NCBI RefSeq assembly: GCF_902809835.1
Contig: NZ_CADDWM010000007.1
Span: forward strand, 1 to 64,000
Reading direction: 5' to 3'
Origin: Agromyces sp. Marseille-P2726
GTDB taxonomy: Bacteria > Actinomycetota > Actinomycetes > Actinomycetales > Microbacteriaceae
Length of the DNA: 64,000 bases
The notes beneath the pieces are model-generated. The model was not told the DNA's origin. It did not search any database and saw nothing but the letters and a program-made list of their open reading frames with translations. A program made the translations under genes and the position numbers. Shown one piece after another: positions 19,319 to 58,739 of the stretch (the stretch's first letter is position 1; the number at the start of each line of letters is the position of its first letter).

Positions 19319-19711
19319 ATGAATCAGTCCCACCTCGAAGAGCGCAGTGACTACGCAGTGGTGGGAGGGGGCCCGGCGATCGCAGCGGTGGTCGACCGGT
19401 TCTACACACTGGTGCTGGGCGACGACCGGCTGCGCGGGTACTTCGAGGGGATCGAAATGGTCCGGCTCAAGCGTCACCAGGTGGCGCTGGTCTCGCAGGT
19501 CATGGGCGGCCCCGTCGGCTACGCGGGGCGCGACCTGCGCGCGGCTCACGAGGGAATGAACATCTCCCGCGAAGACTTCGCCGCAGTTGCCGGCCATCTC
19601 GTGACAGCCCTGACGGAGGCGGGGGTCGAGCCCGCCATCATCGACCGCGTGACCGGCGCGATCCTCGGCACGGAGCCCGACATCGTCGGGGCCGAGGCTG
19701 CGGGCGCCTGA
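19319..19711 (+). CDS. glbN: Truncated haemoglobin, group I (HbN-like)
   Basis: A 130-residue 2-over-2 globin. The family pattern is intact: GGGPAIAAVVDRFYTLVL with the B10 Tyr, LKRHQVAL with the distal-side residues, GGPVGYAGRDL, and AHEGMNIS with the proximal His. Group I truncated haemoglobins detoxify nitric oxide or bind O2. It is the first of three tandem genes and ends 4 bp before the flavohaemoglobin gene. The ATG at 19319 is preferred over upstream in-frame codons because homologues start near here. Confidence 0.88.
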   Translation: MNQSHLEERSDYAVVGGGPAIAAVVDRFYTLVLGDDRLRGYFEGIEMVRLKRHQVALVSQVMGGPVGYAGRDLRAAHEGMNISREDFAAVAGHLVTALTEAGVEPAIIDRVTGAILGTEPDIVGAEAAGA

Positions 19712-19714
19712 CGA

Positions 19715-20908
19715 GTGGATACCGCGGCGCTGAAGGAGACGTGGGCGCTCGCCGAGGGACTCGGCGACGAGGTGCCCCAGTTCTTCTACTCACACCTGTT
19801 CATCTCCCATCCCGAGTTGCGGAGCATGTTCCCGGTCTCGATGGCGAACCAGCGAGATCGGCTCGTCGGAGCGCTCGGCCGAATCGTGTCGGCTGTGGAT
19901 CAGCTCGACGAAGTCACGGAGTTCATCCAGCAGCTCGGCCGCGACCATCGGCGCTTCGAGGTCATCGCGGCGCACTACAACGCCGTCGGTGCGTCGCTGC
20001 TCGCCACGCTGAAGCACTTCCTCGGCGAGCGGTGGACCGATGACGTTGCGGCGGATTGGGCCGAGGCCTACGGCGTGATCGCCACGGTCATGGTCCAGGC
20101 AGCCGAAGAATCCGAACTGACCAGCCCGGCATCCTGGGCGGCTCAGGTGATCTCGGTCGAACGGCGCGGCCTCGACCTCGCGGTCATCCAGGTTCGCCCC
20201 GAGTCCGAATTGCCGTACGTGCCCGGCCAGTCGGTGGCGGTCGAGATCCCGTCTCGTCCGCGGCTGTGGCGGTATCTCAGCCCCGCCAACGCGCCACGCG
20301 ACGACGGCACCATCGAATTCCATGTCCAGATGGTTCCCGGCGGCCAGGTCAGCAGCACGATCGTCCGCTCGCTCCCGGTCGGCGAGACGATCCGTCTCGG
20401 AGCCGCCGTTGGTCAGGAGCTGACGTTGAACGAGGCCGAGCGCGGGCGTGATCTCATCATGGTCGCGGGCGGAACCGGCCTGGCGCCGCTCCGCGCGCAC
20501 CTGGAGCGAATCGACCAGGAGTGGAAGTCCACCGGAAGGGCTCCTCGGGTCCATCTGCTGCACGGCGTGCGGCTGCCGTGGAACCTGTACGAGAACCGGT
20601 TGCTTCAGAACCTCGCCGGCCGGCCCTGGTTCACGTACACACCCGTGGTCTCCGACGACCCCAGTTACCCCGGCCGCAAGGGCTTGGTCGGCGATGTCGC
20701 CGCCGAACGTGGAGCGTTGCATGGACTTCTTGCGCTGGTGTGCGGATCGCCTGAGATGGTTCGGCACACTGCCGCCCGTCTTCGTGCCGCGGGAGTCGAC
20801 CCCGCCGACGTCCGGTTCGAGCAGTTCGCGACCCTCGACGAAGACAGTCACGCCCTGCATCACCACACTCATGACCCGCAGCCGTCTCGGCTGCCGCAGA
20901 AGGTATAG
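19715..20908 (+). CDS. hmp: Flavohaemoprotein (nitric oxide dioxygenase-like)
   Basis: This 397-residue fusion has an N-terminal globin domain (about 1-140) and an FAD/NAD(P)H ferredoxin-reductase domain (about 145-380). The globin part has LFISHPELRSMFP and the proximal His in RDHRRFEV. The reductase part has YLSPANAPRDDG (FAD contacts), a VAGGTGLAPLRAHL nucleotide loop and CGSPEMVRHTA. Some motif positions differ from Hmp; for example, the FAD motif is RYLSPAN instead of R-x-Y-S. It may therefore belong to the divergent actinobacterial (type II) group. It follows the truncated haemoglobin by 3 bp (GTG start) and precedes the DivIVA-like gene by 10 bp, suggesting an operon. The inferred role is nitric oxide defence or haem redox chemistry. 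Confidence 0.85.
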   Translation: MDTAALKETWALAEGLGDEVPQFFYSHLFISHPELRSMFPVSMANQRDRLVGALGRIVSAVDQLDEVTEFIQQLGRDHRRFEVIAAHYNAVGASLLATLKHFLGERWTDDVAADWAEAYGVIATVMVQAAEESELTSPASWAAQVISVERRGLDLAVIQVRPESELPYVPGQSVAVEIPSRPRLWRYLSPANAPRDDGTIEFHVQMVPGGQVSSTIVRSLPVGETIRLGAAVGQELTLNEAERGRDLIMVAGGTGLAPLRAHLERIDQEWKSTGRAPRVHLLHGVRLPWNLYENRLLQNLAGRPWFTYTPVVSDDPSYPGRKGLVGDVAAERGALHGLLALVCGSPEMVRHTAARLRAAGVDPADVRFEQFATLDEDSHALHHHTHDPQPSRLPQKV

Positions 20909-23670: not shown

Positions 23671-25239
23671 GTGGGAACCTACTCCGGAGCAGCGCTGCGA
23701 CATCCGGCAACGCCGAGCGACCTGCTGCGCGCCGGGCTCGAGCGGGACCCGCGCGGTCCGGCCGTCGTCTCTGCCCGGTCGCGCCTGAGCTGGGAGGCAC
23801 TCGACGAGTTGACCGGCCGGCTCGCGGCCGGCTACCTCGCCCTGGGACTCGAGCCCGGTGATCGCATCGCCTCGCTCATGCCCAACCGGTACGAGCTCAT
23901 CGCGCACTACCTCGCCTGCTTCCGGGCAGGCCTGATCGCGACACCGCTCAACTACCGGTACACGGTGGCCGAGATCGACCACGCCCTCGACGTCAGCGAG
24001 GCACGGATGTTGCTGACGCACGTCGAGCGCGAGCCAGACCTGGCGGCGAGTGAGCGAGTGGCCCGCCTGCCCCTCGGCACGATCGGCTACCTCGAGGCCG
24101 AGAACGGCGGCTCCGCATTCCAGGGATTGGTGGAACGCGAACGGCACGGCTCAGACCCGAGGCCGATGACTCCGGAGCCCGGCGCGCCCGCGGTCATCTT
24201 CTTCACGTCGGGCAGCACGGGTCCGCCGAAGGGCGTGACGCACACGCACCGCACCCTCGGCTGGATGTTCGCCACGGCGGCGGCCGCGCTCGAGTTCGGG
24301 GCCGGCGACCTCGTGCTGGCCGGCTCCTCGCTCTCGCACGTGGGGGCCTTCTACGTGTCGTTCGGAGCGCTGAGCGCCGGCGCCGCCATCGCTATCGCCC
24401 GCACGTTCGACGGAGACGAGCTCCTCGGTCTCCTGCGCGACGATCGACCGACCGTGTTGTCGATGCTGCCCTCAGCCCTCTTCGCGCTGACCCGCGACCA
24501 CGGCGCCACCCGCCATGACTTCGCGTCGTTGCGACTCTGCCGGGCCGCGGGTGACAAGGTCTCGGCCGAGCTCGAACGCGAGTTCACCGCGCTCACCGGG
24601 TTCACCATCGACGAGGCGTACGGGCTGTCGGAGACGGGCCTCGTGAGCGTGAGCCCTCCCGCCGCGATCAGGATCGGGTCCGTGGGCCAGGCCGCCCCCG
24701 GCGTCTCGCTGTCGCTCCGCGACGATGCCGGTGACGTCGTCGAGGTCGGCGGCGAAGGTCGCGCCTGGATCAGGACGGAGGCCGCCTGCGTCGGGTACTG
24801 GGGCGATTCGACGGCGACGGATGCCGCATTCGCCGACGGTTGGCTCGACACGGGCGATGTCATGCGCGCCGATCCCGACGGCTACTTCTACTTCGAGGGA
24901 CGCCGCAAGCAGATCATCGTGCATGACGGCTCGAACATCAGCCCGCAGGAGATCGAGGACGTCCTGGAGGACCATCCATGCGTCGACAGCGCCGGAGTGA
25001 TCGGGATCCGCGACGAGATCCACGGTGAGAACGTTCGCGCGTACATCACGTTGCGCGAGGGGACCGAGCGGCCGCGCGACGTCGAGCTCATCCGCTTCGC
25101 ACGAGCGAGGGTCGGCTACAAGGCGCCGGAGGAGATCGTCGTCCTCGACGAGATGCCGTGCACCGCCACCGGCAAGGTCGACCGCGCCGGCCTCAAGCGC
25201 ATGGCCGAGGCTTCGATCCATCGGGGACGCGTCCGCTGA
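23671..25239 (+). CDS. AMP-dependent synthetase / acyl-CoA ligase
   Basis: A 522-residue adenylate-forming enzyme that activates a carboxylic acid with ATP. Motifs in order: FFTSGSTGPPKGVTHTH (P-loop A3, near 173-189), DEAYGLSETGLV near 313, and the A7-A8 part DGWLDTGDVMRADPDGYFYF near 388-407. GRRKQIIVHDGSNISPQEIE is near 410-429, and the catalytic Lys region CTATGKVDRAGL is near 498-509. The substrate pocket cannot be read. The GTG at 23671 follows GGGAG, and a second GTG sits 3 bp upstream. It is monocistronic, divergent from the BtrH-like gene. Confidence 0.9.
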   Translation: MGTYSGAALRHPATPSDLLRAGLERDPRGPAVVSARSRLSWEALDELTGRLAAGYLALGLEPGDRIASLMPNRYELIAHYLACFRAGLIATPLNYRYTVAEIDHALDVSEARMLLTHVEREPDLAASERVARLPLGTIGYLEAENGGSAFQGLVERERHGSDPRPMTPEPGAPAVIFFTSGSTGPPKGVTHTHRTLGWMFATAAAALEFGAGDLVLAGSSLSHVGAFYVSFGALSAGAAIAIARTFDGDELLGLLRDDRPTVLSMLPSALFALTRDHGATRHDFASLRLCRAAGDKVSAELEREFTALTGFTIDEAYGLSETGLVSVSPPAAIRIGSVGQAAPGVSLSLRDDAGDVVEVGGEGRAWIRTEAACVGYWGDSTATDAAFADGWLDTGDVMRADPDGYFYFEGRRKQIIVHDGSNISPQEIEDVLEDHPCVDSAGVIGIRDEIHGENVRAYITLREGTERPRDVELIRFARARVGYKAPEEIVVLDEMPCTATGKVDRAGLKRMAEASIHRGRVR

Positions 25240-27210: not shown

Positions 27211-27233
27211 GAGAGCCGATGACGGGAATCGAA
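27211..27233 (-). repeat. Truncated tRNA-Gly 3'-end fragment (attachment-site remnant)
   Basis: Twenty-three bases are identical to 34363-34385 of the larger repeat and correspond, on the minus strand, to the T-arm and acceptor end of a tRNA-Gly. Similarity decays after 27233 (GCGCTG is shared further on). It lies 59 bp after the NmrA-like gene, at the border to the accessory region. The rest of 27153-27467 holds no recognisable gene. Confidence 0.65.
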
Positions 27234-27467
27234 TCGGCGCTGCGGCGGCGTTCCTTGCCGCGATCTGCCGCATGCTCGTGGCCCAACAGCCTTTCGATGA
27301 ACAGGCGTATCTTCGAAGAAGGCTCAATCGCGGACGGTGGCGGCCGTCACTTCACGAGACACACGCCAGACGAGGGGGAGTTGTGCAGGGAGAGACGAAC
27401 GACGGTCGGTCGCGTCCGCATGGCGGTCGCATGCCGGTCCTATGCGGGTGACCCGCCTCGGACTTTG

Positions 27468-27785
27468 TCAGTCGAGTGCCAGTACGGCTTGGAGTGCGGC
27501 GTCGATGGCGCGCATCTCGGTATCGTCGAGTCGGCCGGCAAACTCTCCGAGCCGCGACTGCGGGTAGATCACGGTGAGTTGTTCGATCATCACGCGGGTC
27601 TTCGTGCCGTTGATCTCGATCTCTGGCCGGAACGATGCTGGCCGTCGGCCGGTCGAGGTCGGGGCGATGATCCACGTCGACAGGGGCAGGTCATCGGACT
27701 GCAGCACAACGGCGTAGCGTGCTCCCGCCTGCTCGTGGCCGCGGACGTCTTTGGGTGCATTGAGCCGGTAGAGGTCACCACGCAC
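27468..27785 (-). CDS. MazF/PemK-type endoribonuclease toxin
   Basis: A 105-residue toxin. The GTG start is fixed by its overlap with the antitoxin gene. The opening VRGDLYRLNAPKDVRGHEQ is the MazF signature, followed by ARYAVVLQSDDLPLSTWIIAP (strand with Ser and Thr contacts) and KTRVMIEQLTVIY. The length is normal for the family, which cleaves mRNA at short motifs. It is downstream of, and coupled to, a ribbon-helix-helix antitoxin. It lies just inside the left end of the accessory region, as is common for island-stabilising modules. Confidence 0.87.
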   Translation of the reverse strand: MRGDLYRLNAPKDVRGHEQAGARYAVVLQSDDLPLSTWIIAPTSTGRRPASFRPEIEINGTKTRVMIEQLTVIYPQSRLGEFAGRLDDTEMRAIDAALQAVLALD

Positions 27786-28005
27786 GGATCGCGTCCATCT
27801 CCGCGGCCAACTCCCGCGAGGCGGCGACGTCATCGGGGTCGTCGCGCAGGCTCTCGGCTTCGGCCCGCAGCCGTGCACGACGGTGTGCCCGTTCGGTTTC
27901 CAGGATTGCGTTCCGGGCCGCCTCTGAGCGTGACTGTCCCTCGCTGGTAAGCGACTGCAGCGCCCGTTCGACCTCGGCATCAGTACGAATCGTAAGTGTG
28001 CTCAT
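27775..28005 (-). CDS. Ribbon-helix-helix antitoxin
   Basis: A 76-residue small protein. It starts with STLTIRTDAEVERALQSL, the beta-strand and first helix of a ribbon-helix-helix DNA-binding domain, and SRSEAARNAIL is the second helix. An acidic C-terminal helix would wrap the toxin. Its stop overlaps the MazF-like GTG start by 11 bp, so the two are translationally coupled. It is expected to repress its own promoter. Confidence 0.85.
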   Translation of the reverse strand: MSTLTIRTDAEVERALQSLTSEGQSRSEAARNAILETERAHRRARLRAEAESLRDDPDDVAASRELAAEMDAIRAW

Positions 28006-28106
28006 GTGACGAATTGTACTACGGAACGCACGGCGTTTACGGCGACGATTCAGCCTAGCCGCGCCAATCGAAAGTACCTGCGCCGTGCAGCCCGTGGGAG
28101 GATCCG

Positions 28107-28520
28107 TTACAGGGCCGCCGGGGGTCCAGGAGGTGCGTCGCGATGCTGCCGTTCGTCGGCAAGTCGAAGGGTGATTCCTCGGCCTTGGATCTCATCGATG
28201 GGCGCGTCGGCGGTCACCGATGTCCTGCTGGAGGCATCGATTGGCCAATCGATGCGCGGGGTGACCCGATTCAGGTAGTTCGATTCGTACGTCGAAAGTG
28301 CAGTACGCCCTGGATCGACTGACTGGCGCCGTGATCGACCCGGTCTCAGGGTCCTGAGCAAGAATCCTACGGCGATCAACGCCCACAACCCGGAAACGAT
28401 CCATACTTGCACGCCCGGAGCAGCGACCAACGCAACCGCCCACCCGACCAGCCCCGCGACAAGCGCCAGCGCCAGAAGCAGCGCCTTCACCAGCGGTGCT
28501 CGCACATCACGCGAGCTCAT
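28107..28520 (-). CDS. Small membrane protein of unknown function
   Basis: A 137-residue protein with two adjacent hydrophobic helices at residues 10-32 and 36-56 and a polar C-terminal region of about 80 residues rich in Asp and Arg. No family recognised. It overlaps the upstream gene by 14 bp, so the two form a small minus-strand operon. Confidence 0.5.
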   Translation of the reverse strand: MSSRDVRAPLVKALLLALALVAGLVGWAVALVAAPGVQVWIVSGLWALIAVGFLLRTLRPGRSRRQSVDPGRTALSTYESNYLNRVTPRIDWPIDASSRTSVTADAPIDEIQGRGITLRLADERQHRDAPPGPPAAL

Positions 28521-28821
28521 CCTGGGGCGGCGGGAACCGCCAGCGGCGGGGACGATCAGCGATCCGATCGCCGCGCAGCCGCCGGTCGATGTAGACCATC
28601 ACCAACCCGCCCGCGACAAGCGCCGCACCCAACGGAGCGAGCAGAGTCCGGGCGATCGCCACGACGATCTCCAGCACGCCGAGCGCCGAATACCACTCAT
28701 CCGTGTTCGGCGCCCACCACGCGCTCAGCGTGAGCGGCGCGGCGGCGACCAGGATGCCGCCGGCCAACCCAACACCCACACCGACCCAGATCACGGTCCT
28801 GGGCATCGACTGGACACTCAT
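28507..28821 (-). CDS. Small membrane protein of unknown function
   Basis: A 104-residue protein with hydrophobic helices near residues 8-30 and 44-72, the second group with a Gly/Ala-rich LLAPLGAALVAGGLVMVYID. It ends in a basic-acidic tail (RRWRFPPPQDELA). The ATG at 28821 was preferred over the in-frame start 24 bp upstream because the latter gives an unlikely N-terminus. Its end overlaps the following membrane-protein gene by 14 bp. Confidence 0.55.
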   Translation of the reverse strand: MSVQSMPRTVIWVGVGVGLAGGILVAAAPLTLSAWWAPNTDEWYSALGVLEIVVAIARTLLAPLGAALVAGGLVMVYIDRRLRGDRIADRPRRWRFPPPQDELA

Positions 28822-28931
28822 GCAACTCCCTCGCCACCAAGACACGTGCCCGCAACCCTACCCAAGGGTCAGCAGGTCCCGCGATTGCCGTGAGTGCGCC
28901 GAAACGAAATTCCCTCGGGAGCGGCCGTCCG

Positions 28932-29261
28932 ATGAGTAACGGGTTCCAGCCCTGGTACTCACCCGCTTCCAGATCGATCCTTGACGAAGATCGGCTGGCC
29001 GCGCGGTCCGTTCTGCGAACCGGCCCGCAATACGATGATTCCGACGTGGAGGCGCTCACCGCGCCATTGGAGGCAATCGTGTCCCAGTCATTTCAGAGCG
29101 GCGGGATGTACTTCAGCGAAGCCGAGGTCCGGGCTCGCCAGGGCCGACTCGATCGTGAACTAGCTGACCTCCGCGCCGAAACCGAGCGTAGGCAAGATAC
29201 GCCGCCCACCCCAGCAAGGAGAGAACGGCGTGGTTGGCTCCGCTGGCTTCGGCGGTCCTAG
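28932..29261 (+). CDS. Hypothetical protein with an acidic helical region
   Basis: A protein of about 109 residues starting MSNGFQPWYSPASRS. The central segment PQYDDSDVEALTAPLEAIVSQ is followed by a charged helix with FSEAEVRARQGRLDRELADL and a basic Arg/Trp end, RRGWLRWLRRS. The C-terminus could contact a membrane or nucleic acid. An in-frame GTG at 28890 is an alternative. No family recognised. Confidence 0.45.
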   Translation: MSNGFQPWYSPASRSILDEDRLAARSVLRTGPQYDDSDVEALTAPLEAIVSQSFQSGGMYFSEAEVRARQGRLDRELADLRAETERRQDTPPTPARRERRGWLRWLRRS

Positions 29262-29602
29262 GGCTGCTGCATTCAGTGTCGATCGCACCCCAGCGGCCGC
29301 CCATTCCCGAGTCGTACTGCCGGGCTCGGCGAAGGGGGCGATCGTTGCCCTCCGACGGATCGGTCATCGGGCGATCAGCCGGTGATCGCTCGCGCGTAGA
29401 TACCGAGCGCCACGATCGCGCCGAGGCGGCTCTGACCAAATGGTTACAGGCCATTGGGTTAGGGCCGCATGTAGATTCGCCCGAGGGCTCGTTTCTGCGC
29501 TCGTGCGCCGCGCGCTTGCGCGTCGCTGCTCTAATGCCCGTCGGCTCCTTCAGTCCACGCTTACGTGCGCCACGGCACTGGCTGGCGGATAATCTGGCAA
29601 TC

Positions 29603-30199
29603 GTGCGGGTCCGCATTCTCTGGTCCGTCGCAGCGATGTTCATCGCGGCGACCCTTTGCGGCTGCTCGGCGAGCCCGCCGATCCACCCGATCGGCACAGG
29701 GGTACCTCTGCCCGAGCTTCTACCGGTGCCGACGGTGAGCCCAGAGGAACTCGAACGGCTACTCGAGACGGGCAACGTCATGACGGAGGAGCAACTCGAG
29801 CTCTCGAACAGCGTGCAAGCTCACTTCGGCGCGGATGCATCGTTTTCGGGGCTCGAGTGGGTTCAGGAGCGAGAGGTCTACGTCGTCTGGTGGTACGGGG
29901 AGCCACCATCAGAACTCGTCCAGTTCGTCGACCAATCCGATAATTTGCTCGAGATCCGCCCGACGGTGAACGCGCCGAACGATGTCGCCGCGGCTGTAAG
30001 GGCGATCATGGAGCCCGGCGCCATCCCTGGCGTTCAGGTGTTCGGCGCAGGTGCGGCGATCGACTGCTCGAAGCTTCACGTCACTGCCGAACCGGTCGAT
30101 CCGCTCCTGACTGATTCCGATGTGCGGGCGCGCATCGAGGCCGTAGCTCAGTTCCCCATCGACCTCGAGATCGGTTCGATCGTTCCCATCACCGGCTGA
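29603..30199 (+). CDS. Secreted lipoprotein of unknown function
   Basis: A protein of about 198 residues. The N-terminus VRVRILWSVAAMFIAATLCGC is a lipoprotein signal with acylated Cys near residue 21. The mature part begins SASPPIHPIGTGVPLP and contains FSGLEWVQEREVYVVWWYGE near 76-95. No enzyme motif is visible. The N-terminal end is ambiguous, with GTG at 29603 and ATG at 29636. The base upstream is not protein-like despite an open frame from 29234. It is the last gene before repeat copy A. Confidence 0.6.
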   Translation: MRVRILWSVAAMFIAATLCGCSASPPIHPIGTGVPLPELLPVPTVSPEELERLLETGNVMTEEQLELSNSVQAHFGADASFSGLEWVQEREVYVVWWYGEPPSELVQFVDQSDNLLEIRPTVNAPNDVAAAVRAIMEPGAIPGVQVFGAGAAIDCSKLHVTAEPVDPLLTDSDVRARIEAVAQFPIDLEIGSIVPITG

Positions 30200-30296
30200 G
30201 TGGTCATTGAGTGTTCCGTCGGCATGCGCGCGCAAGCTGGGGAAAGAGGCGAATCCTTTTGTTTATAAAATGCTTCTGATCAGGGAATTTATCTCG

Positions 30297-30463
30297 GAGC
30301 CGATGACGGGAGTCGAACCCGCGCTGTCTGCTTGGGAAGCAGAAGATATCCAGTAGTGATTCACTCGACTTCACCCGGGCTCACGAGCCCCGGAAACACG
30401 GGGAACTGTGAACTCGAGCGAACCACCGTGATCCCGATTTTGTGACTATTAAGTGACTACGAG
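30297..30463 (-). repeat. Repeat copy A (167 bp): tRNA-Gly 3' half plus integrase arm-like motif
   Basis: On the minus strand, the part near 30297-30345 reads as the 3' half of a tRNA-Gly with anticodon loop TTCCCAA (CCC), T-arm and acceptor end. The 5' half is missing, so it is not a functional tRNA. The right end is the paired motif GTGACTATTAAGTGACTAC (30442-30460). Copy B at 34365-34531 has the same length and about 7 differences. This looks like an attL/attR-type site of a tRNA-integrating element. Confidence 0.85.
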
Positions 30464-31002
30464 CAGCTCCTGCCGACGCGTCAAAGGGTGCGGGGATGTC
30501 GTTCTGTACGATTCGGGCCATCCGGGGGCTCCAATGATTACCGTTGGGGCCAGCTGTGCGGGATCTTGCCCGTTGTGCGGCCGTGTAGTCGACCATCGTC
30601 ACCGACTCGGACGGTCATCGTTCTGTACGCGGGCGGTAGGGGGATGTGCCGCATGGTCATTTCCGGTACTCGTCTTGTCTCCCTCCAGGTCCTACCCGTC
30701 GCTCATTCGGCGCATTTATCTCGGCACGGAAGGCATGCTCGGGGTGGAGGGGGCACCCGATCATCTTCCCGCATGTCGCGTTGGAGCGGGGCCGATGCGG
30801 AGGAGATGCACATGCGAGCAGATGCCTGCCGCTCGCACTTAGTGCCGGAGTCGCGACTAAGCCTCGATGCACCGATCGGCTTGGGGATGGCGGGGTAGGC
30901 CTGGCTCGGGAGCGTTGGCTTGTCGCGGGCAGGAGTGAGCTACGGGCGTCGCATCCCGGTCGTCCACTGGTGGTCCTCGGTCGTGCCGCGTCGCGGCGAT
31001 GG
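30464..31002. other. Gene-poor stretch between repeat copy A and the IS1380 remnant
   Basis: About 540 bp without a frame that looks like a real protein. Overlapping frames are low-quality and Arg/Cys-rich. I see no convincing RNA gene. The IS1380 fragment ends within about 100 bp of its right edge, so this may be decayed element DNA. Confidence 0.5.
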
Positions 31003-31743
31003 TCAGTTGGCCGCGGATGGTGGCGCGTGGGTCGTTGTGAACAGCCGCGCGAACGCGGATTCCCATGGCCAGGCTTGCGGGAGGTGGAGCGTGATGCGGC
31101 GTGCGGAGCGAGCCAGCCGCGCGGGCACCGCGATGAGGGTGCGGCGGATCGTCGCGGTCGTCGCTTTCGCCAATCGGCCGGCCTGGTCGGCGATCACGCC
31201 GGCGGCGCGGGTGAGGTTGAATGCGATGACGGCGAGGACGAGCCAGGCGCTGTTCGCGGTGAACACCCCGGAGGGCAGGTGCGCGAGAGGTCCCGCTTTG
31301 AGATCGGCGTGGACTTGCTCGATGATCGCGTGACCGCGGTGGGTCTTGTCCGCGACCACCGTGTCCATCACGTCGGGATCGGTGGTGGTGAAGAACGCGT
31401 GATGCCGGAACGTGTCGAACAGCGTCGGCTGTTCCAGATTCTTCGGGTTGAGGTCGGGGATGCGCCGCACCACCAGACGCCCGGTGGTGCGTTCGGCCTT
31501 CTTCCTGGAGCGAAACGCGGTGAACGGGATCTCGGCGACCTCTGCTTTCGAGACCCACTGTCCGCTCGCCTCGTCACGGACCGCGTCGGTGTACTCGATC
31601 ATCGTCCACGCATCCTCGCTGATCGTGGTGATAGCGGCCTTCACGGCCGGGTTCATGCGGACGGAGACCGAGACGTCGGCGCCGGCTTTGATGGCGGTGC
31701 CGACATCCTCACCCCATCGGCTCCGCACGGAAGATCTTCGAAC
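31003..31743 (-). pseudogene. IS1380-family transposase, C-terminal half only
   Basis: About 241 residues match the C-terminal half of IS1380-type DDE transposases. Diagnostic stretches are FSVxVRMNP-type VSVSVRMNPAVKAAITTI, RHHAFFTTTDPDVMDTVVAD, and HRGHAIIEQVHADLKAGPLA with the catalytic Glu region. SAWLVLAVIAFNLTRAAG also matches. Full transposases have about 450-470 residues, and upstream of RSRWGEDVG the frame soon meets a stop, so the N-terminal half is gone. No intact terminal repeats were found. It is inactive residue of an insertion. Confidence 0.85.
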
Positions 31744-31953
31744 ATGAGGTCACGCTACGCCTGCAGCGGGTGGGCAATCCGAGTCCAGCTGTATGTGTGG
31801 AAACTGGCTGGCCGGTAGGCCGCGACACCACCGTAACGGCCTCTCCGAGAGCCTCCTCGGACTCGGTGAGAAGCAGCGAGCCATCGAAGTTGGGGCGGCA
31901 AATCCCGCCGTGACTATTTGTGACCTCTCAGGCATTGCCGGACAATACAGAAT

Positions 31954-32544
31954 GTGAGCACCGTCGGATCGGACGAAGCCGCGTTGTGGAGACGCAGTGT
32001 CGCGGGTGAGGGTATCGCTTTCGGTGCGCTGTTCGATCTTCATCGTGATCGAGTGTTCCGACACAGTTTCTGGCTCTTGGGTGATGTTCACGAGGCTGAG
32101 GATGCGTCTGCGTCAGCATTCATGGAATTGTGGCGTTGTCGTGGACAGGTCCGGCTCGTCGCCGGTTCGGTCTTGCCTTGGCTTCTTGTGACTACGAGCA
32201 ATGTGTGCCGAAACCTTCGTCGGGCACGGCGTCGCTATCATGCCCTCCTGGATTCGCTCCCCCGGTCGGAGCCGGCCCTGTCGGCAGAGGACACCGCGGT
32301 CGAGCGGCTCGCAATCTTCGACGCGGTATCCCCTGAGTTGGCGGACGCCCTCAAGGACGTGTCGGAACGGGATCTCGGATTAGTGTCGCTGACGATCTTG
32401 GAAGGGTTCTCGATCGCCGAGGCTGCCGCGGCACTCGGGATGTCACCGTCGGCGGCAAAGACGCGGCTATACCGTCTGCGAACCGGACTTCGGCAAAAGC
32501 TCGCAGCACCGGTGAACGCGCTTGATCGGCAATTGGAGGGGTGA
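31954..32544 (+). CDS. ECF-type RNA polymerase sigma factor
   Basis: A 196-residue sigma-70-family protein (ECF). Region 2 runs from about residue 17 to 80 with FGALFDLHRDRVFRHSFWLLGD and EDASASAFMELWR. Region 4 lies near 130-175 with LGLVSLTILEGFSIAEAAAALG and SPSAAKTRLYRLRTGLRQ. Region 1.1 and region 3 are absent, as in all ECFs. The GTG start fits the VSTVGSDEAALW reading. It overlaps the next gene by four bases (ATGA), and the next gene has a membrane helix, suggesting a linked regulator. It lies inside the 4.07-kb repeat-bounded unit. Confidence 0.9.
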   Translation: MSTVGSDEAALWRRSVAGEGIAFGALFDLHRDRVFRHSFWLLGDVHEAEDASASAFMELWRCRGQVRLVAGSVLPWLLVTTSNVCRNLRRARRRYHALLDSLPRSEPALSAEDTAVERLAIFDAVSPELADALKDVSERDLGLVSLTILEGFSIAEAAAALGMSPSAAKTRLYRLRTGLRQKLAAPVNALDRQLEG

Positions 32545-33278
32545 TGACGATGCAGATGGACGAGCGTTTCGCAGACGAGCTGCGGGCCGCTCTCGTGGCC
32601 GAAGCGGGACGCAAACGCACGCGCCACGCGCGGAGAGCCTGGTTCGCGGGTGGGGCCGTCGTCGTCGGAGTACTCGGCGGTTCCAGTGTCGCGACCGGTG
32701 TGCCCATTCCAATCGGTGGGATAGCGGATCCGGCGGACAAGCCGGGATCTGCCGCAGTCGATCCCGTCGAGCGTGCGGAACACGACTCGATTCTCGACTT
32801 ACCGTTGGCAGACGAGATCCAGTCGGTCGAGCAGGCGCTATCGCAGCTCGGTGTATTCGGTGAATTCCCCGATGTCTTCGGGGCAACGGAGGTCAACTAT
32901 GACACGGCGGAGCTCCTTGTGTACTACAACGAGGCTGCGGCGCCGGAACGAGTCGCGACATTCCTTGCGCGCGTCGACGCCGTCAGCGCGCCGGCGGAAT
33001 TGGGCATTGTCGCCGTCGCTGCCGGATATGCGCGTGCCGAACGCGAACAGGTTCTGCGCGGGCTACTCATGCGGGCAGGCGAGCTCGCCAGCCAACTCCA
33101 GGTGTCCGAGATAAGCGGAGGCGGCATAGATCATCGCACCGGTCAGATCGTCATCCACACAACCGACGACATGGGAGCCCGCACAGTGACGATAGGTAAG
33201 GAGTCGATTCGTGTCGTCGGGTCAATCGGACCAGCCTTCACCGGGTCCACACCACGTAGTGGCATGGACAGCATGTGA
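32541..33278 (+). CDS. Membrane-anchored protein coupled to the ECF sigma factor, propeptide-like C-terminal domain
   Basis: A 245-residue protein. The N-terminal cytoplasmic part (1-35) with FADELRAALVAEAGRKR precedes a membrane helix near 38-58, giving the topology of an anti-sigma or sensor protein. The external domain (about 80-230) shows repeat-like phrases such as VTVY-type AELLVYYNEAAAPERVATFL. ISGGGIDHRTGQIVIHT resembles the pro-regions that precede secreted S1 proteases. It overlaps the sigma gene by four bases and converges 71 bp away on the truncated S1 protease. The anti-sigma role is an inference from position. Confidence 0.6.
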   Translation: MMTMQMDERFADELRAALVAEAGRKRTRHARRAWFAGGAVVVGVLGGSSVATGVPIPIGGIADPADKPGSAAVDPVERAEHDSILDLPLADEIQSVEQALSQLGVFGEFPDVFGATEVNYDTAELLVYYNEAAAPERVATFLARVDAVSAPAELGIVAVAAGYARAEREQVLRGLLMRAGELASQLQVSEISGGGIDHRTGQIVIHTTDDMGARTVTIGKESIRVVGSIGPAFTGSTPRSGMDSM

Positions 33279-33349
33279 GCCCTCGGGCTTGATTGTTTCT
33301 CGACCGCGCGCGAGACGGAGGTGCAAGCCGACCCAACAGTCAGTTGGGG

Positions 33350-34258
33350 TCACCTCGTGGCCAGGGTTGCACTCATCGCGAAGCTGATGTCTTGAACGTG
33401 GAAATAGAAGCAGTTCTTGACACCATTGACAAGGATGTGGCCATACTGCTGGCCGTGCGCAATCGCGTCTCCGGTGGCCGTGGTCGTGAGCCAAGGCCCC
33501 CCGGAGTCGCCCTCAGCGCATTCCTGGTAGTTCGTCCGGACGAACGGGTAAAGGAAGATGCCGCCTTCACCGATCGTCGCCTGTCCAACTGCGTTCACCC
33601 ATCCGATATCCAATCCTGAAACGCCACCGCTCAGCGCGACGGGTTCTCCGATGGTCGGGGTTGCATCCGCGCCGGTGACGGAGCGGATATCGGAAGTCGC
33701 GTAATTGCCAACGAAGACGCTTGCGCTGAACTGGCTCAGCGGTGAGCTACGGATGAGCATGGTGTCAATTGCTAGGTCGGAACCGAGCCTTGTGCCAACA
33801 TACTCGCCGTAATTGTAGAAGGTGGATACCCCACCCAAGTAATTGCAATGCTCGGCGGTGCTGCCTCGAAGCTCGAGGTTTGACCAAACCTGCCAAGTGA
33901 AACCGCTCGTGCAACGGATAGTGCTTGTGAGCCCGGTGTCGGCGACCAGCCTCAGCCCGCCAGTCCAGGGAGCATAGTCGTCATAACGCGTTTGCGCTTC
34001 AGGTTGCCCGGACGAACCAACGATCGTGAAGCGTTCATCACCGACGGTGACCGGCACGTGCGTCCGACACTCGAACTCGACGGTCACGGCGATCAGTGTC
34101 CCACCTCGGGCAAGTCGATAAGTCGGAGGCGCATGACCGCCGGCCACGGTCGCTGAGGCGAAGGGTCCGCTCGAATTTGTGACTATTAAGTGACTACGAG
34201 AGCGGTTCTGCAGTCGAGAGTCGCGGGCCCGCAGTAGCCGAAATCCCTGATCAGCCAC
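33350..34258 (-). pseudogene. Truncated secreted trypsin-like (S1) serine protease
   Basis: From about 34165 down to 33350 the frame is a chymotrypsin-fold protease. CTSGFTWQV is followed by GSTAEHC (catalytic His), DLAIDTMLIRSS (Asp region), and CAEGDSGGPW (catalytic Ser). The natural N-terminus with signal peptide is missing. Instead the frame runs into a copy of the arm-like repeat (34178-34200), which reads RSHLIVTN, and 19 more codons that do not look natural. The gene was probably cut by recombination at this site. All active-site residues remain, but without a signal peptide the product should not be secreted. Confidence 0.72.
34178..34200 (+). repeat. Third copy of the arm-like paired motif, at the truncated protease
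   Basis: The motif GTGACTATTAAGTGACTAC with flanking bases is identical to the right ends of repeat copies A and B, but here it stands alone without the tRNA half. It lies in the N-terminal part of the truncated protease frame, where it seems to mark a recombination junction. Confidence 0.7.
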
Positions 34259-34364
34259 GCGAACCTATCGAGGTGCATCCGCGTGGACTGTTTCCGTGCG
34301 TAATGTGGGATTGCCTGCCTGCTGCCGGAGCATCGAAAGGGCGCCTGATCAGCCAGTTTGCAGA

Positions 34365-34531
34365 GAGCCGATGACGGGAATCGAACCCGCGCTGTCTGCT
34401 TGGGAAGCAGAAGATATCCAGTAGTGATTCACTCGACTTCACCCGGGCTCACGAGCCCCGGAATCACGGGGAAGTGTGAACCCGAGTGAACCAACGTGAT
34501 CTCGATTTTGTGACTATTAAGTGACTACGAG
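34365..34531 (-). repeat. Repeat copy B (167 bp): tRNA-Gly 3' half plus integrase arm-like motif
   Basis: Same structure as copy A: on the minus strand, a tRNA-Gly 3' half (anticodon CCC, T-arm, acceptor) and a paired GTGACTA motif at the right end. It starts 4068 bp after copy A. The sequence around 34259-34364 between the protease remnant and this repeat holds no gene. No 5' half is present, so it is not a functional tRNA. Confidence 0.85.
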
Positions 34532-34850
34532 CTCCTGTCCAGCCTGCTTGAGATGTGCACGAATCGAGTCACCTCCGGCGATCGACCGCCGGGCATTTCA
34601 TCGCACGCTTCACCATATTGGCGACGCCGGTAGGCGCCCATTCCGTCGCGAACTGGTCGCGTCGTCGCGTCGAGGAGTGCCCGAAAGGATGGCGCGATGC
34701 AGTTAGGGACCGTCATCCGCGCGCTTGCCGACCTCTGACAGGCTCGCGCAGACCCGTTGCGCTACGTTCTCTCCACCCACAGGCTTCTGCATGCCGACGT
34801 GCGATGCGGGCCGTACTGCACACCCATCGTTGATACCTGATCAAGGTGGA
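34532..34850. other. Gene-poor stretch after repeat copy B
   Basis: About 320 bp with only short, Arg-rich frames on both strands. No convincing protein or RNA gene is seen. It is probably the edge of the unknown-function gene island. Confidence 0.5.
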
Positions 34851-40715: not shown

Positions 40716-41546
40716 ATGGGGATTGCTGGGGAGCGTGCTCGGGTACTGGTGACGGTGAAGGCGTCGCCCCAGCCGTCAGCGAAGTACGGGGACACCGTGT
40801 GCGTCGCCGGGTTGCGGATCGATGAGTCGCCGCACCGGTGGATTCGCTTGTACCCAGTGCCGTTCCGCTGGTTGAGCTCTAGCAGCCAGTTCAGCAAGTT
40901 CGACGTCATCGACGTGACCGTGAATCGACGAGCGCAGGATAGCCGCACCGAAAGCTTCGTCCCGGATACGCAGTCGATCCAAGTGGTGGAGCATCTGGAT
41001 GGCTGGGATGCTCGGGCGCCTTACATGAACATGCTTCCGACGACGACGACCTGTCGGCTGACAAATGAGGCGGAGCGTGATCATGCGGCCCCCTCGCTGG
41101 GGATGGTGAGGGTAGCGAGCCTAGAAGGGTACGCGCTAGAGAATCACCCGGGCTGGACCGCCGAGGAGGAAGCGAAGATCGCGAAGGCCATGCTGAGCTC
41201 GGAGCTAGATCTGTTCGGAACGAATGCTCCCCCGGCGACGAAGCTCAGAGCGCCGCGACTGAAGCTCCGGTATCAGTACAAGTGCCTGGAGCCCGAGTGC
41301 CCGACACATCAGGGGTCGAATCTGGACTGGGAGCTGACCGCGCTGCAGAACCGGTATCACCGTGAGTCGATCGATCGCCTGCGGGAGATCGTCGAGGACA
41401 AGTTTGTCCGACAGATGTTCGAGGGCCGCCGACAGACATCGTTCTTTATGGGGAACTTCGAGGCCCCGTTCAAGCGGTCGAAGTTCAGCGTGCTCGGCAT
41501 CTACTACCCGCCGTTGGCGGTGGCCTCGAAGGTGCCCCTGTTCTGA
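40716..41546 (+). CDS. Protein of unknown function with a CxxxxC-x2-H zinc-like site
   Basis: A 276-residue protein found with the DUF488 gene. The N-terminal part has VLVTVKASPQPSAKYGDTVC and WIRLYPVPFRWL, and residues 188-205 hold YKCLEPECPTHQGSNLDWE, a likely zinc site. The C-terminal part has FFMGNFEAPFKRSKFSVLG. I have seen this layout in defence- or island-type neighbourhoods but know no assigned function. The ATG is at 40716. It ends 4 bp before the end of the DUF488 gene, so the two genes converge almost end to end. Confidence 0.65.
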   Translation: MGIAGERARVLVTVKASPQPSAKYGDTVCVAGLRIDESPHRWIRLYPVPFRWLSSSSQFSKFDVIDVTVNRRAQDSRTESFVPDTQSIQVVEHLDGWDARAPYMNMLPTTTTCRLTNEAERDHAAPSLGMVRVASLEGYALENHPGWTAEEEAKIAKAMLSSELDLFGTNAPPATKLRAPRLKLRYQYKCLEPECPTHQGSNLDWELTALQNRYHRESIDRLREIVEDKFVRQMFEGRRQTSFFMGNFEAPFKRSKFSVLGIYYPPLAVASKVPLF

Positions 41547-49022: not shown

Positions 49023-50684
49023 GTGGCTGATCCTGCGAAGTTCGATCATGACAGACTTGGACATCTCCTCTCCGACCAACTCCTCGTCGTTCCGCCCTTC
49101 CAGCGACGCTATTCATGGCTTGAAGAACATGTCACAGAGTTCTAGTCAGACATTGAGAAGGCGAGGGCTGATGGAAATTCGTACTTCATGGGCACAGTTG
49201 TGCTTGCCGACGCCCCGAATGGAGACAATCGCAAGCTGATAATTGACGGTCAGCAGCGCATTACGACGACCGCGCTGCTCATCGCAGCCGTTCGTGATCG
49301 TCTTCGCGAGCTCAAGAAGGACATGCCCGCCCAGTCCGTCGAGAGCACGCACCTAAGCAACTACGTGCTTGCCGAGGAAGAGACCATCTCGAAGCTGACG
49401 CTCAGTCCCGAAGATCAGCCGGCGTACGATGCCATTCTGGTCAGCACGCCGCGCGTTGCGAAAGCGGATGGTGTGTCCCGTTCCTATTGGCAACTCAAGG
49501 CCCGTGCAGACGATCGCGCTCCGTCGGAGGATGACTACCGGCAGTTGATCGAGCTCGTAACATTCCTCGATAAGAACGTCCAAGTCCTGCTTGCGGTCGC
49601 GACTGGTCTGCCCGAAGCGTATGTGATTTTTGAAACTCTCAACGACCGGGGGGCGGACCTCACGACCGCGGACCTCCTCAAGAACTTCCTCTTCAGCGAG
49701 GCAGGAGCGAGCGCCATCGCGTTCGCTCAGGCGTCGTGGACTCGAATGAGCTCGCGGTTTGACAAGCCAGAAGACTTCGTCAAGTTTCTTCGGTACGAGT
49801 ACATGTCTCGCCGAGGCCAGGTTACGAACCGTGGACTATACAAGGCGTTGCAGGCCGACATCAGCGGTGGTGCGGCAGGGGTGCGTAAGTACCTCGAGCA
49901 CACCGAGAAGGCCTTGGCGCGCTACGTCGCATTGCGCGAGCCCGATGACGCGTCATGGTCCTCGCAGGCCATTGAGATCAAAGACTCGCTCCTAGCATTC
50001 CGGCGCTTCGGATTCGAGGCAAGTACGCCGCTACTTCTTGCGGCCTTTGCGAATTGGTCCCATTCGAACGCAACCCGCTTCGTCGACACTGTTGCCGCGT
50101 GGTCGGTCCGCGCGCTGATGGCCGGCACGCTCGGCGGTGGAGTTGCCGAGAAGGCCTTCTGCGATGCGGCAGTGGCAGTCACGAGCGGGGCCGCGAAGTC
50201 CGCGACCGATATCCGGCCGATGATGGATGACCTAGTTCCAGATGACTCAGCGTTCCGACAGGCCTTCATGGCTTTCGGTCCGATCACGACCACGCGAGCA
50301 AAGTACCTGCTGGCCTGCCTGGAGCGTCAGTACCTCGATAATCTCGGCGAGCCAACAGACGCCATGCCCGACTGGAGCGCCAAGACGGTTTCAGTCGAGC
50401 ATATCTTTGCCAGGTCTAGCAACCGCGAGCGCTTCGACACGGACGATGACTTCGATCGTTTCGCACTGCTGCGAGATCAGCTGCAGAATCTTGCACTACT
50501 TGAACGAAGTCTGAATGGCAATCTGGAGGACAAGCCCTTCGAGGAGAAGGTCGCGACGTACTCGGAGTCGAAGTTCGCGCTCACGCGCCGGCTTTCCGAG
50601 CTTGAAAACGGTTGGAACTTTGGCGCCGCTCAGCAGCGGGCAGAAGAGCTCGCCGGGCTCGCCATCGGAGCTTGGCCCCGTTGA
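49023..50684 (+). pseudogene. DUF262/DUF1524 (GmrSD-type) protein interrupted by an in-frame amber codon
   Basis: From the GTG at 49023 the frame reads ADPAKFDHDRLGHLLSDQLL and then VPPFQRRYSWLEEHVTEF, the typical DUF262 start. It hits TAG at 49143-49145, then continues SDIEKARADGNSYFMGTVVL with LIIDGQQRITTTALLIAA and, near the end, SVEHIFARSSN and LLERSLNGNLEDKPFEEK of DUF1524. The stop replaces a residue before the conserved SDI, and a TGG-to-TAG change would explain it. Without readthrough, reinitiation at 49188 gives 498 residues lacking the first DUF262 helix. The family restricts modified DNA. A CATAGT -10-like hexamer lies just before the GTG. Confidence 0.8.
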
Positions 50685-54667: not shown

Positions 54668-55119
54668 CGCGTCAGCTATCGCGGGCGATGACGCTGCTCG
54701 GCGACGCGGCGCACGCGCCGCAGCGCATCGGACATCGACGGTTCGCGTCGTGGTGTCGCGAATGTCGTCGCCGGTTCGTCGGGGGCACTCAGCACACGTC
54801 GTTCTGCTCGCAGGCGTGTCGTGACGCGGCCCGTCGCCGTGTGTCGCGCCAGGGTCGCGACGCGGCGACATCCGTACTGGCGCGCCGTTGCGAGGGTTGC
54901 CTGTCGTGGTTCGTGTCGGCCGTGTCGCGTCAGCGGTTCTGCTCGGCGACATGCCGCAAGCGTGCGTGGCACGACGCGGCTCGTGTCGCCGCGCCGCGAC
55001 GGACGACGTGCGCGAACGCATCGTGCCAGGCCGACATGTCGCGGGCTCGGGCAGGTCAGCAGTACTGCTCGACGCGATGCCGCGTCGCGGCGTTCCGGGC
55101 GCGACAGGCGACGTCATGA
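54664..55119 (+). CDS. Multi-zinc-finger protein preceding the relaxase
   Basis: A 151-residue basic protein with three similar zinc-binding units: CREC then FCSQACRDAA (about 31-56), CEGC then FCSATCRKRAW (about 76-100), and CANASC then YCSTRCRVAAF (about 118-143). Each is a CxxC...CxxxC ribbon followed by Arg/Ala helices, suggesting DNA binding. The start overlaps the methylase stop and its end overlaps the relaxase ATG (both ATGA). An accessory role at the transfer origin is an inference from this coupling. Confidence 0.7.
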   Translation: MTRQLSRAMTLLGDAAHAPQRIGHRRFASWCRECRRRFVGGTQHTSFCSQACRDAARRRVSRQGRDAATSVLARRCEGCLSWFVSAVSRQRFCSATCRKRAWHDAARVAAPRRTTCANASCQADMSRARAGQQYCSTRCRVAAFRARQATS

Positions 55120-58100: not shown

Positions 58101-58739
58101 GGGGAGGAACTACACGCGCAGCTTCGCGGCGATGGCGGCTACGACGCGCTCGTGGCGCTCATGCGTCGCCTCGACGAGCAGCAACTCCCGGTCGCGGAGA
58201 TCATCACGGAGGCGGTGCACGCTCGTCGCCTCGACACCGCCAACGACGCGGCCGCGGTCGTCCACCAGCGACTCACCGACCGTCTCGCGATCGCCTCGGC
58301 GAACGCCCCCCAGGCGAGGCGCGAACGCATCGCCGGCCTCATCCCGGTGATCTGCAGCGACCACGCCGACATGCAGCGTGCGCTCGACGAGCGTGCGACC
58401 GCCATCCGTGATCGCGCCGAGCGCGTACTCGACGACGCTATCGCGGCAGGTGAACCATGGACATCGAGGCTCCGCATACCAGGCGGAGACGACTGGCGCG
58501 AGCACGCGGTGACGATTGCCGCCTACCGTGACAAGTGGGGCGTCACCTCGTCGACGCCACTCGGCCCAATCGATGACCTGAACCATCAGCGGCGCACGGA
58601 CTACGAGATCGCCCGCACGGCGCTCCCCCACGTCGAGGCAGCCGCCCCGGCCGTCAACGTGCCGCGTTCGGACGACGCGTCGCGTTACTCACAGATGCCC
58701 GCCGAGCAAACGACACGTCAGCGGATCCGTCTACCGTGA
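55116..58739 (+). CDS. traA: MobF-family conjugative relaxase/helicase (TraA/TrwC-like)
   Basis: A 1207-residue DNA-transfer protein. The N-terminal relaxase domain (about 1-330) has the catalytic Tyr pair DYYAAEG (Tyr33/Tyr34) and the HUH metal motif QLHTHLLIANRV (His214/His216). The helicase part has Walker A VGPAGAGKTTTH near 577-589 and Walker B VIVDEAGM near 651-658. The closing motif AYATTAHRSQG continues into EVAYVGLTRGKQ. MobF enzymes nick oriT and unwind the strand for transfer. The ATG overlaps the zinc-finger gene stop, and its own stop overlaps the J-domain gene GTG (GTGA), so this is the central gene of the operon. Confidence 0.92.
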   Translation: MISMVKIASGEDAWRYFQDSVAAEAGRGDAVDYYAAEGTPAGRWYGAGVAGLGVAEGRTVTPSELSHLFGAGAHPLTGEPLARKYVVVATLEERIDARVKKLDTSLDDATREHAVAKIIAEETAHTPPSSVAGFELVFNPPKSVSVLWALSPASVQEQIKAAHEQALEETLAILERDALRTRAGAGGVAQLEVLGAVATGFDHWDSREGDPQLHTHLLIANRVQTADGQWRTIDSRHALSPHVVTLSETYDAALMDALSNRLGVQWTERSVDRHPERYARFLNERNLNDSQESRALFADELGVAARNRKWEIDGIPSSLLDEFSQRSTQIAQAKDELIEEYRAATGKEPSRFQIWRMRQAATRRTRASKTVHSLEELSAWWRERAARITDPDRLVGRVVEAGHRRLSLQSQWSLHGDDLANVVDVDEVAGRVLAALTASRTTWTRANALAEVHRALKPVTFRSILDRDNASRRVLHQVVAAAVPLTPRNPLHAPREFRQSDGASAFAPTARELFTTRALLDAERRLVAASHQASNLSVGADAIAAMLDAADNDGRMLGTDQRDAVARIATSGLAVDVLVGPAGAGKTTTHAKLRELWEHQHGQHSVIGLAPSAAAARVLGDALSIETENTAMWITGSTGDRPRFAMRPGQLVIVDEAGMSGTLALDELRAQAAAAGAKLLLVGDWAQLGAVDAGGAFSLIVAERGDRAAQLDQVWRFTAEWERDASVLLRLGDVGAIDAYAAHDRMESGSSDEMLADALAAWRADVAAGLESLLIASDNAQVRTLNLHAQEWLREAGKLGDESAGISEQLRAHLGDRVVTRNNNRTLRDSHGEWVRNGQEWTVVKLRRNGEAVVENADGARVTLPVAYLREHVQLAYATTAHRSQGRTVDTAHMLVDETTTREVAYVGLTRGKQSNKAYVTAGVPDSDTSRQLERGWRDVLESVLRSTGADTSATATARGEQARVSSIRQLAAEYDTLAAHIAAERYGAVLSASLGEELHAQLRGDGGYDALVALMRRLDEQQLPVAEIITEAVHARRLDTANDAAAVVHQRLTDRLAIASANAPQARRERIAGLIPVICSDHADMQRALDERATAIRDRAERVLDDAIAAGEPWTSRLRIPGGDDWREHAVTIAAYRDKWGVTSSTPLGPIDDLNHQRRTDYEIARTALPHVEAAAPAVNVPRSDDASRYSQMPAEQTTRQRIRLP

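Follow-up and report, generated by a model that had tools for sequence, protein, structure and literature searches.

A probable non-autonomous integrative unit in a tandem array behind an Agromyces tRNA-Gly(CCC) gene

The stretch of DNA analysed here, hereafter the window, comprises positions 1-64000 of contig C7 (145,197 bases) in the Agromyces genome with the handle G000; other genomes likewise carry G handles, and fetched loci carry L handles. It contains a short element, which we call A, at 30297-34413, bounded by tRNA-Gly attachment sites, without an integrase and next to a larger element, B. We conclude that A is very probably a non-autonomous integrative unit, resembling a cis-mobilizable element, and that it belongs to an array built by tandem accretion behind a tRNA-Gly(CCC) gene. 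This agrees with the original prediction, made from the letters of the window, of a non-autonomous unit or a decayed member of a tandem array.

The unit is framed by two direct repeats at 30297-30464 and 34365-34532, each 168 nt long (predicted as 167), 96% identical without gaps and spaced 4,068 bp apart. As had been predicted, both contain the 3' half of a tRNA-Gly(CCC), with a common portion of 49 nt (the core) that reaches from the 3' end to beyond the anticodon, and each closes with a paired-heptamer motif, GTGACTATTAAGTGACTA, consisting of two GTGACTA heptamers at an 11-bp offset. With up to three mismatches allowed, GTGACTATTAAGTGACTA has three exact copies in the window, against a maximum of 0 across 100 shuffles; at the same tolerance, GTGACTATTAAGTGACTACGAG occurs at four places in the whole genome, all exact, on one strand and on this contig, with 0 in the reversed control. 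ARAGORN found no intact tRNA in the window and placed the intact tRNA-Gly(CCC) outside it, on the minus strand at contig 72737-72808 (L007:8737-8808); the gene beyond it was read by eye, without a family search, as dCTP deaminase. The elements stand in tandem, A running from the core at 30297 to the core at 34365, and B from there to the tRNA at 72737.

Left and right ends each have a layout of their own. In left ends the 49-nt tRNA core is followed by the motif, which starts 145 bp past the core start in 17 cases and 144 bp in an eighteenth; in right ends a heptamer pair comes first and the next core follows 74-75 bp (short kind) or 186-199 bp (long kind) on. Because the positions of core and motif give two elements in a row, each 168-bp repeat is a left end, one for each of the two successive elements, and the pair is not the attL and attR of one, as first proposed; the right end of A is a different structure, at 34179-34413. 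That of B is of the short kind (75 bp), with CCCTGATCA immediately before the core. The end features in the window are:

30297-30464, plus strand: left end of A, with its core at 30297-30345 and the heptamer pair GTGACTATTAAGTGACTA at 30442-30459
34049-34364: right-subterminal part of A, with two CTGATCAG sites, at 34247-34254 and 34345-34352
34179-34413: right end of A, long kind, with a heptamer pair at 34179-34196 and the core 186 bp further on
34365-34532, plus strand: shared core at 34365-34413, where A ends and B starts, and beyond it the rest of B's left end, whose heptamer pair is at 34510-34527

Between core and heptamer pair, both left ends (30346-30464 and 34414-34532) show by eye TCAC and then GTGA steps every ~10-11 bp, which may be further binding sites.

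No integrase was found in A: PF00589 has no match on the contig (its two genome-wide matches both lie on contig C15), and A holds no trace of the cognate integrase described below. Neither is an excisionase recognisable, though a small divergent one could escape, and Pfam searches of the four frames of A (transposase, sigma factor and two unmatched) revealed no conjugation or mobilization gene. These frames are:

31003-31728, minus strand: IS1380-family transposase remnant, C-terminal part only
31954-32544, plus strand: extracytoplasmic function (ECF) sigma factor, cargo of A, with PF04542 and PF08281 above cut-offs
32541-33278, plus strand: probable partner protein, without a family match; its frame overlaps that of the sigma factor
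33350-34258, minus strand: chimeric frame that starts within the right-end module and shows, by eye, protease-like motifs

The missing integrase and excisionase, the IS1380 remnant and the sigma factor had all been correctly anticipated. The remnant covers positions 307-428 of a 435-position profile and, in a second library, 226-419 of 419, below the curated cut-off. A predicted membrane partner for the sigma factor stands as an overlapping downstream frame with a hydrophobic stretch read by eye, but not as a member of any matched family. Similarly, the predicted truncated S1 protease survives as the motifs GDSGGP and TAEHC, read by eye, but the frame has no match in Pfam, NCBIfam or PDB sequences (two PDB matches at E 0.27 and 0.47 only) and its first part belongs to the right end; a single-sequence structural model of it (mean predicted local distance difference test score 28.6) was set aside. 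With 33900-34400 as query, A matches the right ends of elements in G011 (87.8% over 352 bp) and G012 (82.5% over 348 bp), and both matches break off at 34049-34053, within the chimeric frame, indicating that A has been rearranged internally. The ends of A match other elements at about 85-96%, unlike its interior, for which no match to the interiors of other elements was found at E 1e-12. The GC content of A is 0.627, compared with 0.629-0.716 in 161 equal-length chromosomal stretches of the same contig.

Ends of this type recur across the genus. Nine of 60 Agromyces genomes have the motif at up to one mismatch, in 2-7 copies that all lie on one strand within a genome (none of the 60 gives a hit in the reversed control), and the right-end signature occurs at 35 places in 17 of the 60 (reversed control 0). 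Among 84,980 named species genomes the motif was found in 18 stretches, 14 of them in seven Agromyces and four as singles in unrelated metagenome-assembled genomes. The original prediction took membership in a conserved family as a sign against an integrating unit; the repeats do form such a family, but one composed of mobile-element ends, which supports integration.

Arrays were fetched from the nine motif-bearing genomes, and an element was called delimited when both its ends lay on one contig. Eight of the nine hold such elements, 23 in all: A and B in G000, nine in G003, four in G049, two each in G002, G012 and G045, and one each in G011 and G022. Left out of this count are an older unit beside A (Z, below), a G002 element without a recognised left core, the partly fetched tRNA-proximal element of G002, and cut elements in G010, G011 and G045. 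The left ends of the 23 fall into three families (17, one of them the 144-bp variant; 4; and 2), while 10 right ends are short, 12 are long and that of the first G003 element is of neither kind; long right ends occur repeatedly in several species. A connection of long right ends with missing fossils was dropped, the cases being too few. A full 385-residue integrase is present in two elements (G011, 51 kb; G022, 84 kb; the two integrases 97.7% identical), a fossil in two others (B and the first G003 element), and neither in 19, and PF00589 detects no other tyrosine integrase in these arrays. Integrase-less units measure 1.5-38 kb. Where the tRNA-proximal element is delimited, it has neither integrase nor fossil in four of seven arrays (G002, G003, G012 and G049; the remaining three are G000, G011 and G022). 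Some units have subterminal genes in common, pointing to internal deletion and exchange. A serine recombinase was rejected as the mover, PF00239 having matches in six of the nine array genomes and none inside the fetched arrays.

The integrase intact in G011 and G022 has a single Pfam match, Phage_integrase (E 2.5e-12). In G022 the full-length gene lies beside the motif and the tRNA, the motif beginning 38 bp past the final codon of the integrase and the core 75 bp past the motif start. At full length and at least 50% identity, this cognate integrase occurs in only 2 of the 60 genomes, and G000, G003 and G010 retain C-terminal fossils of it; integrases less closely related to it are widespread (41 of 60 genomes at E 1e-6). 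Among 398 sampled genomes of the family, its four closest relatives from other genera are 50-53% identical, and tRNA-Gly(CCC) lies within the fetched 1.5 kb for three of them, the fourth (L091) being followed by a core without a complete tRNA. Seven of the next 15 loci (L093-L107) have a tRNA (Lys in four, and Thr, Tyr and Leu), and eight have none in the fetched stretch. Downstream of the integrase, a perfect heptamer pair at an 11-bp offset is present in 11 of 30 loci, compared with 0-3 at each of 13 other offsets (7-20); two control stretches per locus gave 0 of 30 each at offset 11 and at most 4 at other offsets. G011 is negative in this count because its motif lies too far from the gene.

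Within the left ends, GTGACTATTAAGTGACTA is exact in 16 of 17 aligned (the 144-bp variant, G049_20907, is excluded). Its columns are invariant at 17 of 18 positions versus 50 of 96 in the spacer, and 1 in 100,000 random 18-column spacer sets reached its score. Given that relatives of the integrase neighbour tRNA genes and that heptamer pairs with the same 11-bp period follow 11 of 30, the most likely role of the GTGACTA pairs is that of arm-type sites for the integrase, and the comparison supports a motif that would drift together with its integrase. Left ends of the third family, in G003, carry CCGTGAGTAAACCGTGAG exactly, twice, 145 bp from the core start. As a wider signal CCGTGAGTAAACCGTGAG was rejected: G002 has a one-mismatch copy, but at 364 bp from its core, contradicting fixed spacing there, and the 398 sampled family genomes, a sample outside which G003 falls, contain a single one-mismatch match.

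An empty site, which the original prediction had proposed to look for in related genomes, is present in one of them. In G031, a 648-bp segment aligns at 84.6% with window 24562-25209 and the tRNA lies 0.85 kb away, the same two points being 47.5 kb apart in G000; neither the motif nor the right-end signature was found in G031. G021 was rejected as a second case, its flank matching window 19340-20629 in reverse order and so not colinearly.

The neighbour that separates A from the tRNA is, judging by its genes, a decayed conjugative-type element. B extends over ~38 kb from 34365 to contig position 72737, past the end of the window at 64000, and includes:

54888-58739, plus strand: TrwC-type relaxase (PF08751, 8.4e-76)
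62589-63038, minus strand: single-strand binding protein (PF00436)
63490-64000, continuing to contig 65274, minus strand: coupling protein of TraG/TrwB type (PF12696, PF02534)

Its integrase persists as a fossil outside the window, at contig 70144-70401, corresponding to the last 86 of 385 residues at 98.8% identity; a wider alignment includes an internal TAG, and this is the sole integrase trace on the contig. Six of the 39 frames of the G011 element are matched in B, among them the relaxase (76%) and the coupling protein (85%). The 33 unmatched frames include a small HTH_17 protein, a candidate excisionase of the G011 and G022 elements, to which its gene is restricted among the fetched arrays.

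On the other side of A, a core relic and an CTGATCAG site at 30276-30283, ahead of the core at 30297, suggest a third, older unit:

27213-27242, plus strand: tRNA-Gly core relic of ~30 nt, 90% identical over 30 nt to the core and 91% over 35 nt to the second repeat
27243-30296: unit Z, ~3 kb, with a PemK/MazF-like gene (PF02452, 2.9e-18)

The relic is the probable outer edge of the array, and Z is probably that older, decayed unit. By reading, the CTGATCAG site resembles the long right-end kind, and no heptamer pair was found near it; one gene of Z has a counterpart in a G002 element (59% over 78 aa).

Taken together, these features suggest how such an array could grow. A tyrosine integrase of the type intact in two relatives would most likely bind the heptamer pairs as arm-type sites, strand exchange would take place inside the tRNA core, and each arriving unit would land at a core, with an intact tRNA remaining on the host side. 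Having no integrase, A could move only if one were supplied, whether by a neighbour that has an integrase and is excised jointly with it (cis-mobilization) or in trans; and as B retains only a C-terminal integrase fragment, A is probably stranded at present. Several points weigh against this account. Neither an excision product nor movement can show in sequence data of this kind. The arrays were found via the motif, so that its conservation is partly selected, although within arrays the ends were located by the core. The motif of G011 sits ~1.1 kb from its integrase, and the heptamer pair went unrecognised in 6 of the 22 right ends of either kind, whether 3, 4 or 5 mismatches were allowed. Nor do the 30 integrase loci count as independent trials, since they are interrelated, the positives L103, L105 and L106 having nearly the same heptamers. 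Finally, G031 is the one colinear empty site among 30 tRNA loci compared, from the 60 genomes.

The strongest alternative is simple decay: A would be what is left of an element that was once complete and had an integrase, with its interior lost and partly replaced and its mobility gone, a reading we regard as a real possibility while leaning against it. The homology break at 34049-34053 inside the chimeric frame, the insertion-sequence remnant, the decay of the neighbouring B and the relic core at 27213 would all be expected of such a history. Yet A retains both ends with perfect heptamer pairs, and no remnant of an integrase, of transfer genes or of related conjugative elements was found in it. 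Simple decay also fits less well with the four of seven arrays in which the tRNA-proximal element has neither integrase nor fossil, and with the nine G003 units, none of which has an intact integrase; these three points leave room for movement in trans.

At the opposite pole, A and many other units may never have had an integrase, being instead standing non-autonomous elements for whose insertion and excision rare conjugative relatives would supply the integrase in trans. We consider this doubtful. It would account for the 19 of 23 delimited elements without integrase or fossil, for such elements standing nearest the tRNA in four of seven arrays, for interiors that are mostly unrelated behind similar ends, and for the recurrence of long right ends in several species; loss of the integrase after arrival would give the same pattern, however, and the fossils in B, G003 and G010 and the signs of internal deletion and exchange among units with common subterminal genes speak for such loss, and only 2 of 60 genomes have the integrase intact. 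A phage satellite or plasmid-derived island is highly improbable: 28 records of Gordonia and Streptomyces phages and three plasmid-collection records match the tRNA-core portion of the left end, but only that portion is matched and every match is confined to about 30% of the end or less, no viral contig contains the motif exactly, and both B and the G011 element have a relaxase and a coupling protein.

Tandem accretion of integrase-less units has already been described for cis-mobilizable elements (CIMEs) and for the ssrA islands of Dehalococcoides, and A is best read as another such case within an array. Like a CIME, as characterised in PMC5704250 and PMC7563491, A keeps both attachment sites without integration and transfer genes, and stands in tandem with the decayed conjugative-type B, sharing a site with it, on the side away from the target gene. 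It differs from that description in that no trace of descent from an integrase-bearing element was found in it. A CIME originates by deletion from an integrative and conjugative element (ICE) or integrative and mobilizable element (IME); in the interior of A no remnant was found at E 1e-12, and its rearranged right-subterminal part shows internal change. An IME has its own integrase, which A does not; of the attributes of an ICE, B has the relaxase and coupling protein and lacks the intact integrase. According to PMC7563491, streptococcal CIMEs measure 1.2-13 kb, some with carbohydrate-metabolism genes, and the greatest distance from the target gene is always that of the elements in the most advanced decay; in Agromyces, by contrast, an integrase-less unit lies next to the tRNA in four of seven arrays, and one array (G003) has nine delimited units, unlike what is given there for streptococci. 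As set out in PMC3146451, Dehalococcoides carries tandem islands behind one RNA gene, split by direct repeats of its 3' end, with 15 cargo-bearing islands lacking an integration module; that system uses a serine recombinase and a tmRNA gene, whereas the Agromyces arrays have a tyrosine integrase, tRNA-Gly and heptamer-pair sites. Actinomycete integrative and conjugative elements (AICEs), as described in PMC3218068, share with them a tyrosine integrase, the 3' end of tRNA genes and occasional tandem pairs; unlike AICEs as portrayed there, B and the element in G011 combine a relaxase of TrwC type with a coupling protein of TraG/TrwB type, in a comparison made with no search by AICE-transfer models.

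The best open-access literature matches include no account of these Agromyces or Microbacteriaceae elements, which says little about their absence from print. Rows of cargo units without their own recombinase are known from integron gene cassettes, each of which has a single folded site of attC type and which depend on an IntI platform; the Agromyces units differ in having two ends with tRNA core and heptamer pairs and in measuring 1.5-38 kb when integrase-less, and in this comparison no consensus base pair was found in 14 long right ends, and integrases were sought by PF00589 only. Specifically, the extra ~100-nt piece of the long right ends, the only piece folded, yielded no predicted pair among the 14 sequences. 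Tycheposons, likened here by description, are similar in being tRNA-anchored cargo elements.

Further observations concern individual arrays and relatives. The G003 array (L049-L055, G003:C1:3571000-3702000) spans ~124 kb, with nine delimited units, three left-end families and many sugar-use genes. In G012, contigs C13 and C23 (L061 and L062) begin at the same core position, 8 nt inside, and the two ends of C13 (5,373 bp) overlap by 55 bp, consistent with either an assembly break at the repeat or a circle. Two core alleles, which by reading differ in a swapped anticodon-stem pair, are uniform per genome except in G010, which has one core of each. There, contig C34 (L057) has the other-allele core although the tRNA has the first allele, and the adjoining cargo reads as a metal-transport ATPase; this single case of mixed alleles is a hint that units pass between groups of hosts. 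When right ends and left ends were examined by tRNA allele, each tree had one well-supported branch, and neither is used to argue transfer. More broadly, Microbacteriaceae integrases at L089-L107 and L169-L173 lie beside varied tRNA genes (Gly, Lys, Thr, Tyr, Leu and Arg), often followed by 11-bp-offset heptamer pairs with differing heptamers, raising the possibility of a code linking integrase and arm site in this integrase family. At L091 (G421, another genus) an integrase relative is followed by a tRNA-Gly core and then by non-tRNA DNA; this locus is probably also a tandem array. B contains defence-type genes, GmrSD/HEC-06-like (49188-50684) and PDC-M19B-like (40716-41546) in the window and, beyond it (L007:1369-8386), a C5 cytosine methylase and a Vsr-like endonuclease, with weaker HEC-07 and PD-Lambda-3 matches. 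The PemK/MazF-like toxin gene of Z, at 27468-27980 on the minus strand, has a small overlapping upstream frame at 27775-28005 on the same strand, which could be an antitoxin.

The cargo of other units was surveyed in proteins chosen by hand and not sampled, ten from small units and ten large ones from the G003 array, many units (those of G002 and G012, and parts of G049) being read without scanning. Glycoside hydrolases (GH) were found in at least 5 of the 23 units. The contents recorded were:

G049 unit, 6.4 kb: LacI, GH32, binding protein and permease
G049 unit, 1.5 kb: DUF4386 protein
G045 unit, 6.7 kb: GH43 and binding protein, with LacI and two permeases named by reading
G003 unit, 4.9 kb: DAK1/DAK2, MIP and IclR
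G003 array, ten large proteins: GH95, GH2 twice, melibiase, rhamnosidase, GH43, arabinofuranosidase, a carbohydrate-binding module protein, a sortilin/BNR match and one unmatched

With glycoside hydrolase or transporter operons in several units, part of the carbohydrate use of these soil bacteria may travel in this way. Less probably, Agromyces may possess a true cassette system on tRNA-Gly, in which integrase-less cargo units of about 1.5-38 kb, several with sugar-use operons, would have standardised ends (left ends with the constant 145-bp spacing and right ends of two repeated designs) served in trans by a tyrosine integrase from rare conjugative elements; a host would then accumulate metabolic modules at a single tRNA gene in much the way that an integron collects cassettes. 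The natural series of 23 units lets one ask whether integrase-less islands are dead remnants or move with a borrowed integrase, and that question is directly testable, since the ends and their candidate arm sites are identified, as are one empty site and a cognate integrase in intact form.

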